A stretch of DNA of 64,000 nt from an uncultured Alphaproteobacteria bacterium. Lineage in GTDB: Bacteria; Pseudomonadota; Alphaproteobacteria; HIMB59; GCA-002718135. Below are positions 2,176 through 8,664 of the stretch, piece after piece. The notes beneath the pieces are model-generated. The model was not told where the DNA came from. It did not search any database and worked only from the letters and a program-made list of their open reading frames with translations. Within the stretch, counting starts at the first letter, position 1; each line of letters opens with the position of its first letter. A program made the translations under genes and the position numbers. The DNA is taken from contig CACGUF010000001.1 in NCBI GenBank assembly GCA_902576125.1, positions 186,001 through 250,000 of the forward strand. The letters run 5' to 3'.

Positions 2176-2635
2176 TTAAAATTATTAAAGTTAATACTGT
2201 ATATAACCCAGCAATCATATCATCAAGAATTACACCATAGCCATTTTTATAGTGTTTATCAAAATAATTAGCTGGAAAAATTTTAATAATATCGAAAAAT
2301 CTAAATAAAATAAATATTAGTGTATATGTTGTAATGTCATTATTAATAAAAATTAAATCATAAAAAAGAAATATTATAAAAATACCAAGTAACTCATCTA
2401 TAACAATATATTTTGAGTCATATGAGTTGGTTATAAACGAATAATAATTAATTAAATAGTTTGAAATAAAAAATAAAAAAATAAATATTAATGCAAGGAT
2501 TATTAATGGTAGTGATAAAATATCACACAAAATAAACATTATTAATAAGGATACTAAGCTTCCCCAGGTACCTGGTGCATATTTAATATATCCAACAAAA
2601 AAAATTGAAATAAATAGTGTGCTAAATTTTTTCAT
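2162..2635 (-). CDS. pgpA: Phosphatidylglycerophosphatase A
   Basis: PgpA removes the phosphate from phosphatidylglycerophosphate to give phosphatidylglycerol at the inner membrane. The 157-residue hydrophobic protein has the family's APGTWGS motif near residue 20, a DELLG acidic motif near residue 81 and a DDMIAG motif near residue 138, with about four membrane spans. Its start overlaps the end of ispDF by 14 bases and its end overlaps cinA by the same amount, so the three genes are presumably one transcript. Confidence 0.9.
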   Translation of the reverse strand: MKKFSTLFISIFFVGYIKYAPGTWGSLVSLLIMFILCDILSLPLIILALIFIFLFFISNYLINYYSFITNSYDSKYIVIDELLGIFIIFLFYDLIFINNDITTYTLIFILFRFFDIIKIFPANYFDKHYKNGYGVILDDMIAGLYTVLTLIILNEFI

Positions 2636-3758
2636 TTGTAATTTGTACTATTGACTCTGCAGCAATTCCTAATCCATCGCCAATAAATCCAATTTTTTCA
2701 TTTGTTGTAGCCTTAATTGAAATGATTTTTTCAGAGATTTTTAGTAATGAAGATATTTTTGATATCATTTGTTTTCTATATTTATTTATATTAGGTTTTT
2801 CACATATAAAATTAATATCTAAATTAACTATAAAAAAATTTTTCTCTTTTAGTTTATTCCTTGCAAATTTTAAAAAGTATTCAGAATTTTTATTTTTCCA
2901 TTTTGTGTCCTTATTAGAAAAATAGTAACCTATGTCTTTCATTGATAAGGCTCCAAAAATGCTATCACAGATTGCATGAATACCTACATCAGCATCTGAA
3001 TGTCCAATTAATTTATTAAAATTAATTTTTACACCACATAATTTCAATCCTTTTTTTGTATTTGTATCAATACGATGAATATCGTAACCAATACCAGATT
3101 TATAAATAGGTTTTAAAAAAAGTTTAAAATAATTTAGGTCTTCAGGATATGTAATTTTGACATTTAATTTTTCTCCTTTAATAAAGCTTAATTCTTTTTT
3201 AGATATTAATACTGAGTCATCTTTTGCATTTAGCATTTTTGTTTTAAAATGTGATTTAAAAATTGTTTTAAAATCAAAGCCTTGAGGGGTTTGTATTAAT
3301 TTCAAGTTTTTGTTAAAATCTTGTTTTGAAATTACTTTTCTATCTGGGCTTACTATATAAGGTATAGCTGAAATATTTTTGTCAAGATGTTTTAAGATTT
3401 TTGCTGTTAATTTATTAGAGCAAAAGGGTCTTGCTGCATCATGTATTAAAACTTTATTTGGATTATATTGTTTTAATTTTTTCAAAGCATTAAATGATGA
3501 TACTTGTCGATTTTTTCCAGCTTCTACATAAATTAGTTGTTTATTAGGAAAACTTCTTTTTATCTTTTCAAAAAATCTATGATATGATTTTTTAATTACA
3601 ATTAATATTATATCAAAATTATTAGTGTCTAAGCGATTTAAAAAAAAATCTATAAGATTTATACCATTAATTTCATTAAATTGCTTAGGTAGTTTTTTAT
3701 TAAACCTTTTGCCAGTACCTCCTGCAAGGATAACGAGTGCATTTTTAGTTTTTTTCAT
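2622..3758 (-). CDS. ispDF: Bifunctional IspD/IspF isoprenoid enzyme
   Basis: This fused enzyme catalyses two non-consecutive steps of the MEP pathway: CDP-ME synthesis (IspD) and cyclisation to MEcPP (IspF). The N-terminal half carries the nucleotidyltransferase loop LAGGTGKRFNKKLPKQF and the HDAARPF motif. The C-terminal half starts near residue 222 with GIGYDIHRI, which holds zinc ligands, followed by GHSDADVGIHAICDSIFGAL. The IspDF fusion is typical of alpha- and epsilonproteobacteria. It is divergent from ntrY with 61 bp between start codons. The dusB-ntrB-ntrC genes that commonly lie between ispDF and ntrY are not there. Confidence 0.96.
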   Translation of the reverse strand: MKKTKNALVILAGGTGKRFNKKLPKQFNEINGINLIDFFLNRLDTNNFDIILIVIKKSYHRFFEKIKRSFPNKQLIYVEAGKNRQVSSFNALKKLKQYNPNKVLIHDAARPFCSNKLTAKILKHLDKNISAIPYIVSPDRKVISKQDFNKNLKLIQTPQGFDFKTIFKSHFKTKMLNAKDDSVLISKKELSFIKGEKLNVKITYPEDLNYFKLFLKPIYKSGIGYDIHRIDTNTKKGLKLCGVKINFNKLIGHSDADVGIHAICDSIFGALSMKDIGYYFSNKDTKWKNKNSEYFLKFARNKLKEKNFFIVNLDINFICEKPNINKYRKQMISKISSLLKISEKIISIKATTNEKIGFIGDGLGIAAESIVQITNEKI

Positions 3759-3819: not shown

Positions 3820-5967
3820 ATGTTTAGCTTAACCAAAATATTAAATAGATTGTATCTAACAAAATTTTCATTTTATTTATTGTTATGCCTAATTTTAATT
3901 AGCTTTTCAATCACCTTTTATTTAATGTTGCCAAATAATAATCTGGTTAAAAACCCTCTACAATTACAGTATTTTTTATTGGCTGATGTTTTTTTTGTAA
4001 TTTTGCTTTTAGCTCTAATAATAAGACAGCTTATATTAATAATAATTTATAAGAGAAATCAAAAAGATGAATCAAAATTATATATAAAATTTGTAAATTT
4101 ATTTACTGCTATGGCTGTCGGGCCTGCCATTGGTTTAGTTGTAATAACTTCCCTTTTTTTCAATTTAGAGTTTAGAACTTGGTATGGTGGAGCTGTTAGA
4201 GAAGCAGTGGTTAATTCAAATATAGTTGCTAGAGATTATGAAAATGAAATACAAGCTGAAATTATCTCAGATACTCAATTGATTATGAGAGAAATAGTAA
4301 AAGTTTCAAGAAATAATGAAGTTAATATAAATTCTATAAATCAAGGATTAAGTGAATTCATAAATCTAAGAACAATCTCAAATATTTATTTATTTAATAA
4401 AAAAGGAGAAATATATTTAAATTTTAAAGATCAAGAAAATCAAAATTTTTTGTTACCTTCAGATGATATTTTTCAAATATTAGATCAAAACAGAGTTTAT
4501 ATTTTTCAATTAAATAAAAATTCTATCTCTGCTTATAAAAAAATTAATTTCTTAGGTGATGTATTTATGCAAGTTAATAGACAGCTTAATACTAACATTT
4601 GGGATCATATATCAGCAACCAAAGATGCATATAAAATTTACACTACTAAAGAAAATGAAAGTGCCGGTATACAAATAACTTACTCAATGATATTTGTGTT
4701 ATTTTCTATCGGATTTATTTTAATTGCTGTTTTGATTGGTTTTAACCTAGCAAGAAGACTTTCTAAACCTATATCTAATCTTATAGAATCAGCAAATGAA
4801 ATTTCAAAAGGTAATTTTGATGCAAAAGTTTCTGAAATTGATCAATTTGATGAAATTAAAGTTTTAATTTCTTCTTATAATAAAATGATAGGTGAAATTG
4901 AAAATAAGCAAAACCAACTTATTTCAAAGAGTAATGAAGATGAAGAAAAAAGGTTATTTATTGAGGCTATTTTAAGTTTGCTTACTATAGGAGTAGTTTC
5001 ATTAGACAAAGATTTTAATATTATATTTTTTAATCAAACAACGAATAATCTTTTTAAAGGTACAAAAAAACTTGAAAATAATAAAAATTTTTTATTAACC
5101 TTTCCAGACTGGAAAATTATTTTTGACAATTTTAAAAAATCAAAAAAAATTCTCGAAAACTTTCAAACAGAAATATTAATCAAAGATGATTTAAGAAGCT
5201 TTAATATTAGAATTATTAAGGAATTTAAAGATCATATAATTAATGGTTATATAATTGCTATAGATGATACTACTTCATTTATTCTAGCAGAAAAACATGC
5301 TGCCTGGTCGGATATTGCTAGGAAGATTGCTCATGAAGTTAAAAATCCATTAACACCTATAAAATTATCCGCTGAAAGAATTGAAAAGAAATATATTAAT
5401 AAAGAATTTGAAAAAGATGAAATTATGACTCTTACAAATACTATTTCAAGACAAGTTGATGATATTGGAAAACTAATTGATGAATTTTCTTCATTTGCAA
5501 GAATGCCTGAGCCAGAAATTAAACTTGATAATTTATCTAAATGTTTGAATGAATCTTTCTTATTATTTTCTAATTCTCATAAAAATATTAAATTTAAAAT
5601 AAATAAAAATGATCAAGATATTTTTTACCAGTTTGACAAGTTTCAAATGTCTCAATGTTTTAATAATCTTATTAAAAATGCTGTTGAGGCAGTAGAAAAA
5701 ATACCAAATCCTTCAATTTCTATAAATTTTACATCTGACAGCAATAAAATTTTCATTGAAATTGCAGACAATGGTATAGGAATATCTCAACAAATGGTAA
5801 ATAAAATATTTGAGCCATATTTTACTACAAAAAGTAAAGGTACTGGGTTAGGGCTTTCAATAGTAAAAAAAATTATTGAAGACCATAACGGAAAAATTAA
5901 AATAGAAAAAAATAAGCAAATGGCAGGCACAACAAGCTCAATTATATTTGAAAATCTAAATGCTTAA
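3820..5967 (+). CDS. ntrY: NtrY-type membrane sensor histidine kinase
   Basis: This 715-residue sensor kinase has about three N-terminal membrane spans within residues 15-125, a periplasmic region, a further span near residues 287-312, then a HAMP linker, a PAS-like region (about 380-485), a HisKA domain and a HATPase domain. The phospho-acceptor is H505 in IAHEVKNPLTPIKLSAERI. The ATP site shows the N box NLIKNAVEAVEK, the G1 box DNGIGIS and the G2 box GTGLGLS. NtrY homologues act in nitrogen, redox or envelope signalling; the signal here is unknown. Its stop overlaps the ntrX start by 8 bases, so kinase and regulator are made together. Confidence 0.93.
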   Translation: MFSLTKILNRLYLTKFSFYLLLCLILISFSITFYLMLPNNNLVKNPLQLQYFLLADVFFVILLLALIIRQLILIIIYKRNQKDESKLYIKFVNLFTAMAVGPAIGLVVITSLFFNLEFRTWYGGAVREAVVNSNIVARDYENEIQAEIISDTQLIMREIVKVSRNNEVNINSINQGLSEFINLRTISNIYLFNKKGEIYLNFKDQENQNFLLPSDDIFQILDQNRVYIFQLNKNSISAYKKINFLGDVFMQVNRQLNTNIWDHISATKDAYKIYTTKENESAGIQITYSMIFVLFSIGFILIAVLIGFNLARRLSKPISNLIESANEISKGNFDAKVSEIDQFDEIKVLISSYNKMIGEIENKQNQLISKSNEDEEKRLFIEAILSLLTIGVVSLDKDFNIIFFNQTTNNLFKGTKKLENNKNFLLTFPDWKIIFDNFKKSKKILENFQTEILIKDDLRSFNIRIIKEFKDHIINGYIIAIDDTTSFILAEKHAAWSDIARKIAHEVKNPLTPIKLSAERIEKKYINKEFEKDEIMTLTNTISRQVDDIGKLIDEFSSFARMPEPEIKLDNLSKCLNESFLLFSNSHKNIKFKINKNDQDIFYQFDKFQMSQCFNNLIKNAVEAVEKIPNPSISINFTSDSNKIFIEIADNGIGISQQMVNKIFEPYFTTKSKGTGLGLSIVKKIIEDHNGKIKIEKNKQMAGTTSSIIFENLNA

Positions 5968-7294
5968 AGTTTTAATTATTGATGATGAAAAGGATATTTG
6001 TTTTTTAATATCTGAAATTTTGAAAGATGAAAAATACCTTACATATTCAGCTATTAATTCTAGTGAGGCTATTTCATACTTCAATAAATATAATCCTGAT
6101 TTAGTAATTCTTGATGTCTGGCTTTCTAATAGCAAATTAGATGGTATAGAAATTTTAAAAGAATTTAAAAAAATTAATATTAATGTTCCTGTAATTATTA
6201 TTAGTGGACATGGTACTGTAGATCTAGCTGTAAGTTCAATAAAGAATGGAGCTTATGATTTTTTAGAAAAACCATTCAATAGTGATAAGTTAGTAATTTT
6301 AGCAAAAAGAGCGATTGAAAGCTCTAGATTATTAGATGAAAATAAAAACTTAAAAGAATTAGTATCTCCAGATATCAATTTAGTAGGTAATTCAAATTTT
6401 ATTATTCAAACTAAAAAAAATATTGTTAATTTTTCAAAATCAAACTCTCGTCTTTTAATTGAAGGCCCATTTGGAGTTGGAAAAAAATTAATAGCTAATC
6501 AAATTCATAAAAATTCCAAATATAAAGATAAAATTCCAATAAATATTGATTTTGCAACTTTGAATGAAAGTAATCTTGAGGTTTTATTTTCTGAAGATAT
6601 TAAAAATTTAAATGGCAATCTTTTCGTTAGATCAAATATGAATACATTGATTTTATCAAATATTGATCAGATACCCCTTAAGTTTCAAAAGCAATTTCTT
6701 TTTTTTATTGAAAATTCTGAATTTTTTAAAGCATCAAATATAATATTAGATCATAAAATAATTACAATTTCAGAAAAAAATTTAGAAGAAGAAATTAACA
6801 ATGGTAATTTTTTATCTAGATTATACGAACGTTTAAAAGTAGATCATTTGAAATGTCTTAGCTTATCACAAAGAGTTCCTGATATTTTACCAATTTTAAA
6901 TTATTATATTTCAAAATTTAATGCGAGAAATATTGATCTAACATTCTCTAAATCAGCCATTTCAAAATTAGAAACTTTTGATTGGCCTGGAAATGTAGCT
7001 CAATTAGTAAACTATGTAGAAAAAACTGTTATACTTAACCAGACAGCAAATGATGATCTAGTTCTTGACGTAGATAATTTAGCACTTGAAATGGGAGATT
7101 ATAGTAAGGAGCAATTCTCCTTAAATAATTATGATTTATCATTAAAGGAAGCTAGAATGGAGTTTGAAAAAGAATATTTAGTATCGCAAATTAAACGTTT
7201 TAGTGGTAATATATCTAAAGTATCAGAATTTACTGGTATGGAAAGAACAGCTCTCTATAGAAAACTTAAATCATTAAATATTTCAGTTAAATAA
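5960..7294 (+). CDS. ntrX: NtrX-type response regulator with degenerate AAA+ domain
   Basis: The 444-residue regulator has a receiver domain (about 1-120) with phospho-acceptor D52 in VILDVWLS, a central AAA+-like domain (about 140-380) and a Fis-type helix-turn-helix at the C-terminus (SKVSEFTGMERTALYRKL). The central domain is eroded. The Walker A region reads GPFGVGKK (about 169-176). The expected GAFTGA sigma-54 contact loop is absent around residues 205-225. The Walker B position reads LILSNID instead of LFLDEI. It therefore probably does not remodel sigma-54 polymerase and may regulate as a phosphorylation-controlled DNA-binding protein. Pairing with NtrY is clear from the overlap. Confidence 0.92.
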   Translation: MLKVLIIDDEKDICFLISEILKDEKYLTYSAINSSEAISYFNKYNPDLVILDVWLSNSKLDGIEILKEFKKININVPVIIISGHGTVDLAVSSIKNGAYDFLEKPFNSDKLVILAKRAIESSRLLDENKNLKELVSPDINLVGNSNFIIQTKKNIVNFSKSNSRLLIEGPFGVGKKLIANQIHKNSKYKDKIPINIDFATLNESNLEVLFSEDIKNLNGNLFVRSNMNTLILSNIDQIPLKFQKQFLFFIENSEFFKASNIILDHKIITISEKNLEEEINNGNFLSRLYERLKVDHLKCLSLSQRVPDILPILNYYISKFNARNIDLTFSKSAISKLETFDWPGNVAQLVNYVEKTVILNQTANDDLVLDVDNLALEMGDYSKEQFSLNNYDLSLKEARMEFEKEYLVSQIKRFSGNISKVSEFTGMERTALYRKLKSLNISVK

Positions 7295-7299
7295 ATAAA

Positions 7300-8664
7300 A
7301 TGAAGACAATAATTTGTGGTTCTGGTGATGTAGGTTATAGTATTGCTGATAAGTTATCTAAAGAAAATTTTGAAGTTACTGTTGTTGATGAACCTTCTAA
7401 TAAACTTAACAAAATATCTGAAAATTTAGATGTAAAAGTATTAGCAGGTATTCCAAGTTTGCCAACTACACTAATGAATGCAGGGGCAAAAGATTGTGAA
7501 ATATTAATTGCAGTAACAAAAAGTGATGAAACAAACATGATTGCATGCCAAATAGGGCATTCATTATTTAAAATACCAAAAAAAATTGCAAGAATTAGAC
7601 AGCAAGATTATTTAAAAGGTGAGTGGCAAAATTTGTATACTAAAAATGATTTACCTATTGATGCTATAATTTCCCCTGAGCAAGAAGTAGCAAGTGCTTT
7701 TCATAGAAGAATAATATCACCTGGAACAATTGACATGGTTGAGTTATCAGATAAGCAATTAAAATTAATTGGTTTTAAGTGTGACAAAAATTGTAGTCAC
7801 ATAGGGTTAACAGTCAGAGAATTATCTGCAAAATTTCCTGATTATTTAGCTAATATTTTATTTATTTTTAGAGGAGATAAAAAATTTATCGTTAATTCCT
7901 CTACTAAGATAGAAAATAATGATCTTATTTATATGGTTGTTGAAAAACAGAATTTAAAAGATGTTTTGAAAGAATTTGGACACAAAGAATTACAAGCGCA
8001 AAAAATTGTTATTATTGGAGGAGGTAACATAGGCTTTTCTTTAGCAGAGTTAATAGAAAAAGATGATAGTGGTATTTCCACTGAATTAATTGAATTAGAT
8101 AAAGAGCGTGCTCAATTTCTTGCATCACAACTAAATGCAGTAACAATTACTAATGGGGATGGTCTAGATAATCAAATATTAGATGAGGTTAATATTGCTG
8201 AAGCTGGATATTGTCTTGCAGTTACAGAAGATGATGAAGTTAATGTCTTAGCTTCATTACTTGCAAAAAGAGCAGGCACTAAGCAATGTATGGCCCTTAT
8301 AAATAACAGTTCTTATACATCATTATTATCAAATATAGGTATAGACATAACAATTGATCCAAAACTTATTACTATTTCAAAAATATTAGAAAAGGTTCGA
8401 GGTGGTAGTATTATGAATGATTATTCATTAGGTGATGGTTTTGGAGAGGTAATTGAAGCAATGATCAAAAAACAATCCCCACTTTGTAACAAAAATTTAA
8501 AAGAATTGAATTTACCTAAAAGTGTTAGAATAGGCTCTATATTAAGGGATGGAAAAATTATTATTCCTAATAGTAACACAAATTTTAAGGAAAACGATGA
8601 TGTAGTATTCTTTTCAGAGACACAGTACATTAATAAATTAGAAAAATTACTCTCTGCATACTAA
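7300..8664 (+). CDS. trkA: Trk potassium uptake regulator TrkA
   Basis: TrkA is the cytoplasmic NAD(H)-binding gating subunit of Trk/Ktr potassium channels. The 454-residue protein has the expected duplicated RCK layout: a first Rossmann fold starting IICGSGDVGYSIADKL, a first RCK-C half ending near residue 225, and a second Rossmann fold starting IVIIGGGNIGFSLAEL near residue 237, followed by a second RCK-C domain. It starts 5 bases after ntrX. No trkH/trkG membrane subunit is in the window, so the channel partner must be elsewhere. Confidence 0.95.
   Translation: MKTIICGSGDVGYSIADKLSKENFEVTVVDEPSNKLNKISENLDVKVLAGIPSLPTTLMNAGAKDCEILIAVTKSDETNMIACQIGHSLFKIPKKIARIRQQDYLKGEWQNLYTKNDLPIDAIISPEQEVASAFHRRIISPGTIDMVELSDKQLKLIGFKCDKNCSHIGLTVRELSAKFPDYLANILFIFRGDKKFIVNSSTKIENNDLIYMVVEKQNLKDVLKEFGHKELQAQKIVIIGGGNIGFSLAELIEKDDSGISTELIELDKERAQFLASQLNAVTITNGDGLDNQILDEVNIAEAGYCLAVTEDDEVNVLASLLAKRAGTKQCMALINNSSYTSLLSNIGIDITIDPKLITISKILEKVRGGSIMNDYSLGDGFGEVIEAMIKKQSPLCNKNLKELNLPKSVRIGSILRDGKIIIPNSNTNFKENDDVVFFSETQYINKLEKLLSAY

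Follow-up and report, generated by a model that had tools for sequence, protein, structure and literature searches.

The 64,000-nucleotide stretch analysed here (the window) comes from the 1.255 Mb, 72% complete draft genome of an uncultured alphaproteobacterium of the order HIMB59, and carries ntrX, the gene for an NtrX response regulator. The best explanation for this protein, and in our judgement a likely one, is that it regulates sigma-70-type promoters by binding DNA under the control of phosphorylation, with an AAA+ domain that does not hydrolyse ATP but probably still holds nucleotide. Sequence comparison suggests that the NtrX of the order as a whole probably works in this manner, as a phosphorylation switch on ordinary promoters and not as a molecular motor.

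The open reading frame list and the Pfam matches mark ntrX as a genuine gene, and its product follows the NtrX-type order of receiver (REC), AAA+ core, lid and Fis-type helix-turn-helix (HTH). The gene and the parts of it discussed below are:

5960..7294, plus strand: ntrX, response regulator, 444 amino acids (open reading frame list; Pfam domains; best NCBIfam model NF051870)
5969..6295, plus strand: REC, residues 4-112, with D8, D9, D52, S82 and K104 present (Pfam Response_reg, PF00072, 89.6 bits)
6113..6115, plus strand: phospho-acceptor Asp52 (alignment of 178 NtrX)
6380..6850, plus strand: AAA+ core, residues 141-297, no L1 GAFTGA (Pfam Sigma54_activat, PF00158, 71 bits; AlphaFold2 model)
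6464..6487, plus strand: Walker A or P-loop, GPFGVGKK, residues 169-176, intact GxxGxGK (51 of 51 order rows)
6647..6667, plus strand: Walker B position, LILSNID, residues 230-236, Asp replaced by S233, Glu by N234, acid at D236 (alignment)
6809..6835, plus strand: arginine-finger segment, FLSRLYERL, residues 284-292, first Arg replaced by L285, second Arg (R291) kept (alignment)
6869..7093, plus strand: AAA+ lid, residues 304-378 (Pfam AAA_lid_14, PF25601, 47 bits)
6989..7006, plus strand: sensor II segment, GNVAQL, residues 344-349, sensor II Arg replaced by A347 (alignment)
7160..7270, plus strand: Fis-type HTH, residues 401-437 (Pfam HTH_8, PF02954)

Loss and retention in the AAA+ domain

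We examined 52 loci of the order, drawn from 122 order genomes with an NtrX match: 32 of 81 from the same genus, seven loci (three of them fragments) from all six other genomes of the family, and 13 of 35 from a second family. The Walker B position of the window protein reads LILSN in place of hhhhDE, as the first-pass annotation, made from the window sequence, had noticed, and this state is common to the whole genus sample: in all 32 same-genus rows the Glu is replaced by N, and the Asp position never carries D. DE is found in none of the 49 order rows. Two further losses come in addition to those that the annotation had named, the first arginine finger and the sensor II Arg, both gone in 32 of 32 same-genus rows, with the second finger kept in every one. 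The annotation had asked whether a functional Walker B or a GAFTGA loop might stand at another place in the protein; neither is present in the sequence, and that candidate was rejected. Its proposal that ATP hydrolysis has been lost is well supported by these alignments.

The same annotation had taken Walker A to be eroded, but GPFGVGKK fits GxxGxGK, and so does the motif in each of the 51 order rows covering it. Loss of ATP binding does not seem to be borne out, the P-loop being one of the most conserved parts of the AAA+ core. In the 49 full-length order rows only nine of the 159 core positions never vary (G143, G169, G172, G174, K175, I182, H183, S186 and I268), and these nine include the four signature residues of the P-loop (hypergeometric P 4.9e-6, a guide only, since positions depend on one another and glycines tend to be conserved).

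At either end of the protein the annotation was right to call D52 and the Fis-type HTH intact: D52 is in the sequence and Pfam finds both domains. D8, D9, D52 and K104 are kept in all 51 order rows that cover them and S82 in 50, the remaining row having T. The recognition helix of the window protein, MERTALYRKLK, resembles the group consensus of class NtrX, MERSALHRKLK. The second order family (L101-L113) has a shorter NtrX of 413-416 amino acids with a strongly different HTH, whose recognition helix reads LDRVSLYRKIK instead of MERSALHRKLK; judging from the helix, the DNA target of these proteins has probably changed.

Position 236, two after the lost Glu (D236 in the window protein, 6665-6667), carries an acid in 47 of 49 order rows. 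ATP might therefore still be hydrolysed through a rearranged Walker B, in which Glu234 has become Asn and the acid at 236 (N-[IVL]-[DE]) serves as a possible catalytic base. Such a rearrangement would fit the wider pattern, in which 236 is acidic in six of 23 class rows without Glu234, from six different families, and in none of the 155 rows with it. Six of 23 is, however, only weakly above the 11.7% acid background (p 0.044). The protein has also lost its first arginine finger and sensor II Arg, and position 237 is acidic in 142 of the 155 class rows that keep the Glu and in none of the 49 order rows, as if the acid had moved by one step, outside the catalytic site. Because 237 is usually acidic in the class and never in the order, the acid at 236 looks like one displaced by a single place after the active site was given up rather than a new catalytic base, and we regard continued hydrolysis as very improbable.

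Selection has not treated the domains alike. Pooled ratios of nonsynonymous to synonymous substitution (dN/dS) in two same-genus clades were 0.067 and 0.035 for REC, 0.137 and 0.101 for the AAA+ core and 0.071 and 0.073 for the HTH, rough values given that synonymous sites were near saturation in the first clade. The AAA+ core thus evolves faster than REC and HTH, yet under purifying selection, with dN/dS far below 1 in all domains. At REC identities of 0.8-0.9 the AAA+ identity is 0.587 in the family and 0.812 in class NtrX with an intact Walker B (340 and 19 pairs); at 0.6-0.7 the values are 0.461 and 0.563 (54 and 928 pairs), and at 0.90-0.97 they are about equal, 0.873 and 0.890 (71 and 4 pairs). 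By these measures the core is relaxed but not free.

This relaxation, some two to three fold relative to REC, could be read as the mark of a decaying gene or an assembly artefact, a regulator without function. One interrupted copy is known in the order (G014:C15:3378-4707, ntrX split over two frames with internal stops, a pseudogene or an assembly error), and one nearly complete genome has no match. Decay is barely credible for the window gene, however, when all 32 same-genus proteins are 442-444 amino acids long, 69% of HTH and 61% of REC positions are invariant among them, their motif state is identical and every domain shows the low dN/dS given above.

A stronger competitor holds that the AAA+ domain is a pure scaffold that binds no nucleotide, the P-loop surviving for folding, and that NtrX is a dimeric, phospho-dependent DNA-binding protein. 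The loss of the Mg-holding Walker B Asp, the faster evolution of the core and the further shortening of the L1 segment in the second order family, from 29 to 17 residues, are all in its favour. Yet the P-loop Lys is invariant in 51 of 51 order rows in a core with so few invariant positions, and we know of no folding role for this Lys. Loss of the P-loop is also tolerated elsewhere: 11 of 178 class rows are without it, seven of them without Walker B too. We consider the pure scaffold unlikely, and a domain that binds nucleotide without hydrolysing it remains our preferred explanation.

Distribution across the class and relation to rpoN

For the class we drew on 289 genomes, of which 263 matched the NtrX model strongly (a number that will include some NtrC) and 215 gave an rpoN match (PF04552) above cut-off. 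The 178 class rows comprise 48 of the 50 rpoN-lacking genomes with a match, two fragmentary ones being dropped, and 130 of the 215 rpoN-bearing genomes: the 25 top-scoring, 52 of 106 in the middle (hand-picked, about every second) and the 53 at the bottom. Genomes with rpoN whose best NtrX matches were weaker than the bottom rows lie outside the sample. Also dropped were an interrupted frame (L047), three partial genes, six genomes with only an NtrC-scoring match and one without a match. Two of the rpoN-lacking rows, L130 and L131, match weakly and sit on long branches.

None of the 230 alphaproteobacterial NtrX (52 from the order and 178 from the class; 227 cover the loop and three are fragments) carries GAFTGA, and these include proteins with an intact Walker B in rpoN-bearing genomes. 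NtrC-type paralogues read in the same way have GAFTGA and an intact Walker B in eight of eight. Since the loop is absent from every NtrX collected and present in all these paralogues, its absence is, in these alignments, a trait of the NtrX family. The first-pass annotation was thus correct that the window protein has no GAFTGA but not in treating this as a specific loss, and its picture of a sigma-54 activator stripped of its contact loop does not hold when the loop is missing from all sampled NtrX, with or without rpoN.

Among the class rows 135 have both Walker motifs, 32 Walker A only, four Walker B only and seven neither. On a FastTree tree of 193 rows, built with the motif columns left out and containing long branches, Walker B requires at least 19 changes and Walker A five. 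NtrX therefore seems to have given up its hydrolysis residues repeatedly while keeping the P-loop, and the order is one fixed case. The order splits into two groups on this tree, and the orthology of the second family rests on best match, not on the tree.

Seven class rows (L118, L124, L127, L128, L114, L262 and L264) have Asn or Gln at the Walker B Glu and keep the Asp, and L124 and L128 are without Walker A as well. This substitution resembles that of laboratory ATP-trap mutants (compare the PspF E108Q structures among our structural matches), and such proteins may hold nucleotide without turnover.

No rpoN match above cut-off was obtained in any of 162 order genomes, the 20 nearly complete ones and the 72% complete genome of the window included. 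The sole match under the cut-off (19.6 bits, G007) lies in a frame that reads, from the sequence and with no family search, as a LacI-type regulator, and was rejected as a missed rpoN. Four sigma-70-family matches are present in the window's genome. Its other PF00158 match, considered as a second bacterial enhancer-binding protein (bEBP), is a 757-amino-acid protein that reads as ClpA (no family search) and was likewise set aside. NtrX is the sole clear NtrC-type regulator in 20 of 21 order genomes, none being found in G156, which has no NtrX-like match; the PF00158 matches outside NtrX in these genomes lie in frames of 757-968 amino acids, apart from two sub-threshold ones (19 bits) in frames of 242-248. 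Of the features of a sigma-54 activator the window protein thus has Walker A, while GAFTGA, the hhhhDE of Walker B, the first finger and sensor II Arg, and an rpoN are absent from what we searched. The annotation had proposed checking for rpoN and had suggested action with sigma-70 or as a repressor. Independence from sigma-54 is supported by this search; the sign of regulation we can only infer.

Uncorrected for kinship, Walker B loss is commoner in rows without rpoN. There is no strict coupling, because DE is kept in 33 of 48 rpoN-lacking rows and missing, in strict form, from 24 of the 130 sampled rows with rpoN (106/130 against 33/48, p 0.10). The sampled rpoN-bearing counts over-weight weakly scoring rows. 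With the middle rows scaled up (48/52 applied to 106) they become about 156/184 against 33/48 (p 0.020), and against the 17/28 rpoN-lacking rows from genomes at least 95% complete p is 0.007, both values ignoring kinship; an earlier, still more biased sample had given p 0.54. In a pair test on the tree, 15 of 19 pairs carried no information; the ratio was about 3 to 1, and a p of 0.05 was out of reach. Other motifs were also lower in rows without rpoN, in uncorrected tests: Walker A (128/130 against 39/48, p 0.00014), sensor II Arg (119/130 against 35/48, p 0.0025), Walker A and B with both fingers (99/130 against 28/48, p 0.025) and, at the borderline, both fingers alone (116/130 against 37/48, p 0.051). 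Our explanation of the window protein is independent of this link.

Four genomes of the class that are 70-91% complete (G172, G299, G364 and G385) have no PF04552 match, yet encode a GAFTGA-bearing NtrC-type protein; their rpoN probably lies in the unassembled part, and their rpoN-lacking labels are probably false. Three others, of one family (G183, G314 and G411; 4.2-4.6 Mb, 100% complete), have no PF04552 match and an NtrX with intact Walker B that is among the 30 best scoring of the class.

Gene neighbourhood and proposed mechanism

The start of ntrX overlaps the 3' end of ntrY by eight bases, and trkA is next downstream:

3820..5967, plus strand: ntrY, partner sensor kinase, 715 amino acids, NtrY_N/HAMP/HisKA/HATPase_c, overlapping the ntrX start (open reading frame list, Pfam)
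7300..8664, plus strand: trkA, potassium uptake subunit, 454 amino acids, 3' of ntrX (open reading frame list, Pfam, NCBIfam)

The order ntrY-ntrX-trkA was found in all 30 same-genus loci tested. Among 56 class loci with 1.5-kb flanks, 55 have an NtrY neighbour and 32 both NtrY and TrkA. The best of 98 NCBIfam models for the window protein is NtrX, NF051870, and on this best match and gene order the protein is an NtrX orthologue by sequence, without certification by the curated model. On the other side of ntrY, 61 bp away and divergent from it, 2622-3758 on the minus strand reads as a fused IspDF (from the sequence, with no family search).

In the proposed model the window protein is the orthologue of NtrX in a marine alphaproteobacterial order with streamlined genomes and without rpoN. 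NtrY would phosphorylate D52, and the phosphorylated receiver would alter the dimerisation or oligomerisation of NtrX. The HTH would bind DNA at sigma-70-family promoters, repressing or activating by contact or occlusion. The AAA+ domain would neither hydrolyse ATP nor remodel sigma-54 polymerase; it would be kept as a scaffold, with a P-loop that probably still holds nucleotide and stabilises the fold or the oligomer.

Several points weigh against this mechanism. P-loop glycines can persist for the fold alone, and a protein without the Walker B Asp should coordinate Mg less well, so that its affinity for ATP may be poor. The 250 bases upstream of ntrY in 16 family genomes (a 17th locus, of the second family, had no located ntrY start) hold no conserved CAAN3-5TTG or GCAN9TGC site: GCAN9TGC occurs in one, and the CAAN3-5TTG matches are scattered, all but one (at -42) lying more than 160 bases upstream, beyond the short gap before ntrY. 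NtrX was not found in 40 of 162 order genomes, mostly incomplete, against a match at E 1e-20 in the other 122; the figures for the nearly complete ones are 1 and 19 of 20. The NF051870 score of the window protein is 398 bits, under the curated cut-off of 600, with relatives at 412 and 427 bits in the same family (L094 and L097) and 183 in the second (L105). Finally, Caulobacter NtrC, which also lacks GAFTGA, reportedly needs both its Walker A and its Walker B residues (PMC10274813), and a GAFTGA-less protein therefore need not be hydrolysis-free.

The role of the NtrX AAA+ domain is puzzling because the protein has no sigma-54 contact loop. It is possible, and we put it forward tentatively, that the NtrX of the order is an ATP/ADP-binding, non-hydrolysing switch in which the P-loop nucleotide, as a fixed cofactor or an energy-charge sensor, sets the oligomerisation of phosphorylated NtrX on sigma-70 promoters. 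As hydrolysis residues have been lost and the P-loop kept many times across the Alphaproteobacteria, binding without hydrolysis may be a general mode of NtrX. An order without hydrolysis residues and without rpoN that keeps its P-loop is a natural experiment separating ATP binding from hydrolysis, and the role of nucleotide in sigma-54-independent NtrC-family regulators becomes testable with simple mutants. Streamlined ocean bacteria may here be recycling a motor-type protein as a plain switch.

Comparison with known systems

GAFTGA-less NtrX, sigma-70 NtrC-family regulators and NtrX in rpoN-less marine genomes are already known. Searches of open-access PMC papers, in which those listed for HIMB59 and AEGEAN-169 mentioned neither clade, turned up no report of an order-wide or repeated Walker B loss in NtrX with the P-loop kept.

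The NtrX of the NtrYX systems of Brucella, Sinorhizobium, Rhodobacter and Caulobacter shares with the window protein the REC, AAA+ and Fis HTH arrangement, the absence of GAFTGA (described for Caulobacter NtrX in PMC10274813), the P-loop and the position after ntrY. What sets the window protein apart is the lack of both Walker B acids, Asp and Glu, of the first arginine finger and of the sensor II Arg, all of which most sampled class NtrX have. S. meliloti NtrX binds CAAN2-5TTG, requires phosphorylation of D53 and both represses and activates (PMC9223101), and of the six high-confidence chromatin immunoprecipitation sites of R. sphaeroides NtrX, five lie at genes related to the envelope and the sixth at its own operon (PMC7240162).

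The annotation had suggested modelling the AAA+ domain, and an AlphaFold2 prediction (57 sequences; mean predicted local distance difference test score 86.7, predicted template modelling score 0.64) agrees with known NtrX structures. Its best structural matches are three Brucella NtrX crystals (5m7n, 5m7o and 5m7p; Z 32.5-33.5, 422-427 residues, root mean square deviation 5.6-5.8), so that the window protein shares its predicted fold with Brucella NtrX at a Z of about 33. By their titles one of these entries is an ATP complex and one an ADP complex. These complexes are a structural precedent for a GAFTGA-less NtrX that binds nucleotide, although Brucella NtrX keeps an intact Walker B.

Outside NtrX the nearest parallel is R. 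capsulatus NtrC, an NtrC-family regulator without GAFTGA that acts with sigma-70 and for which ATP binding rather than hydrolysis is reportedly needed (PMC10274813). It shares with the window protein independence from sigma-54 and possibly ATP binding without hydrolysis; it differs in being NtrC rather than NtrX, compared here by its published description, and in that the window protein has lost the hydrolysis residues outright. VpsR of Vibrio cholerae is bEBP-like, acts with sigma-70 and reportedly needs neither ATP nor receiver phosphorylation (PMC10274813). Its structure (7v2b) shares with our protein a bEBP fold acting without sigma-54, at 20% identity in the structural alignment, whereas VpsR reportedly needs no phosphorylation of its receiver and, by the entry title, binds cyclic di-GMP. 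SAR11 (Pelagibacter HTCC1062) keeps NtrY and NtrX and reportedly has only sigma-70 and sigma-32 as sigma factors (PMC13198564), and so resembles the order studied here in retaining the pair in a streamlined marine alphaproteobacterium.

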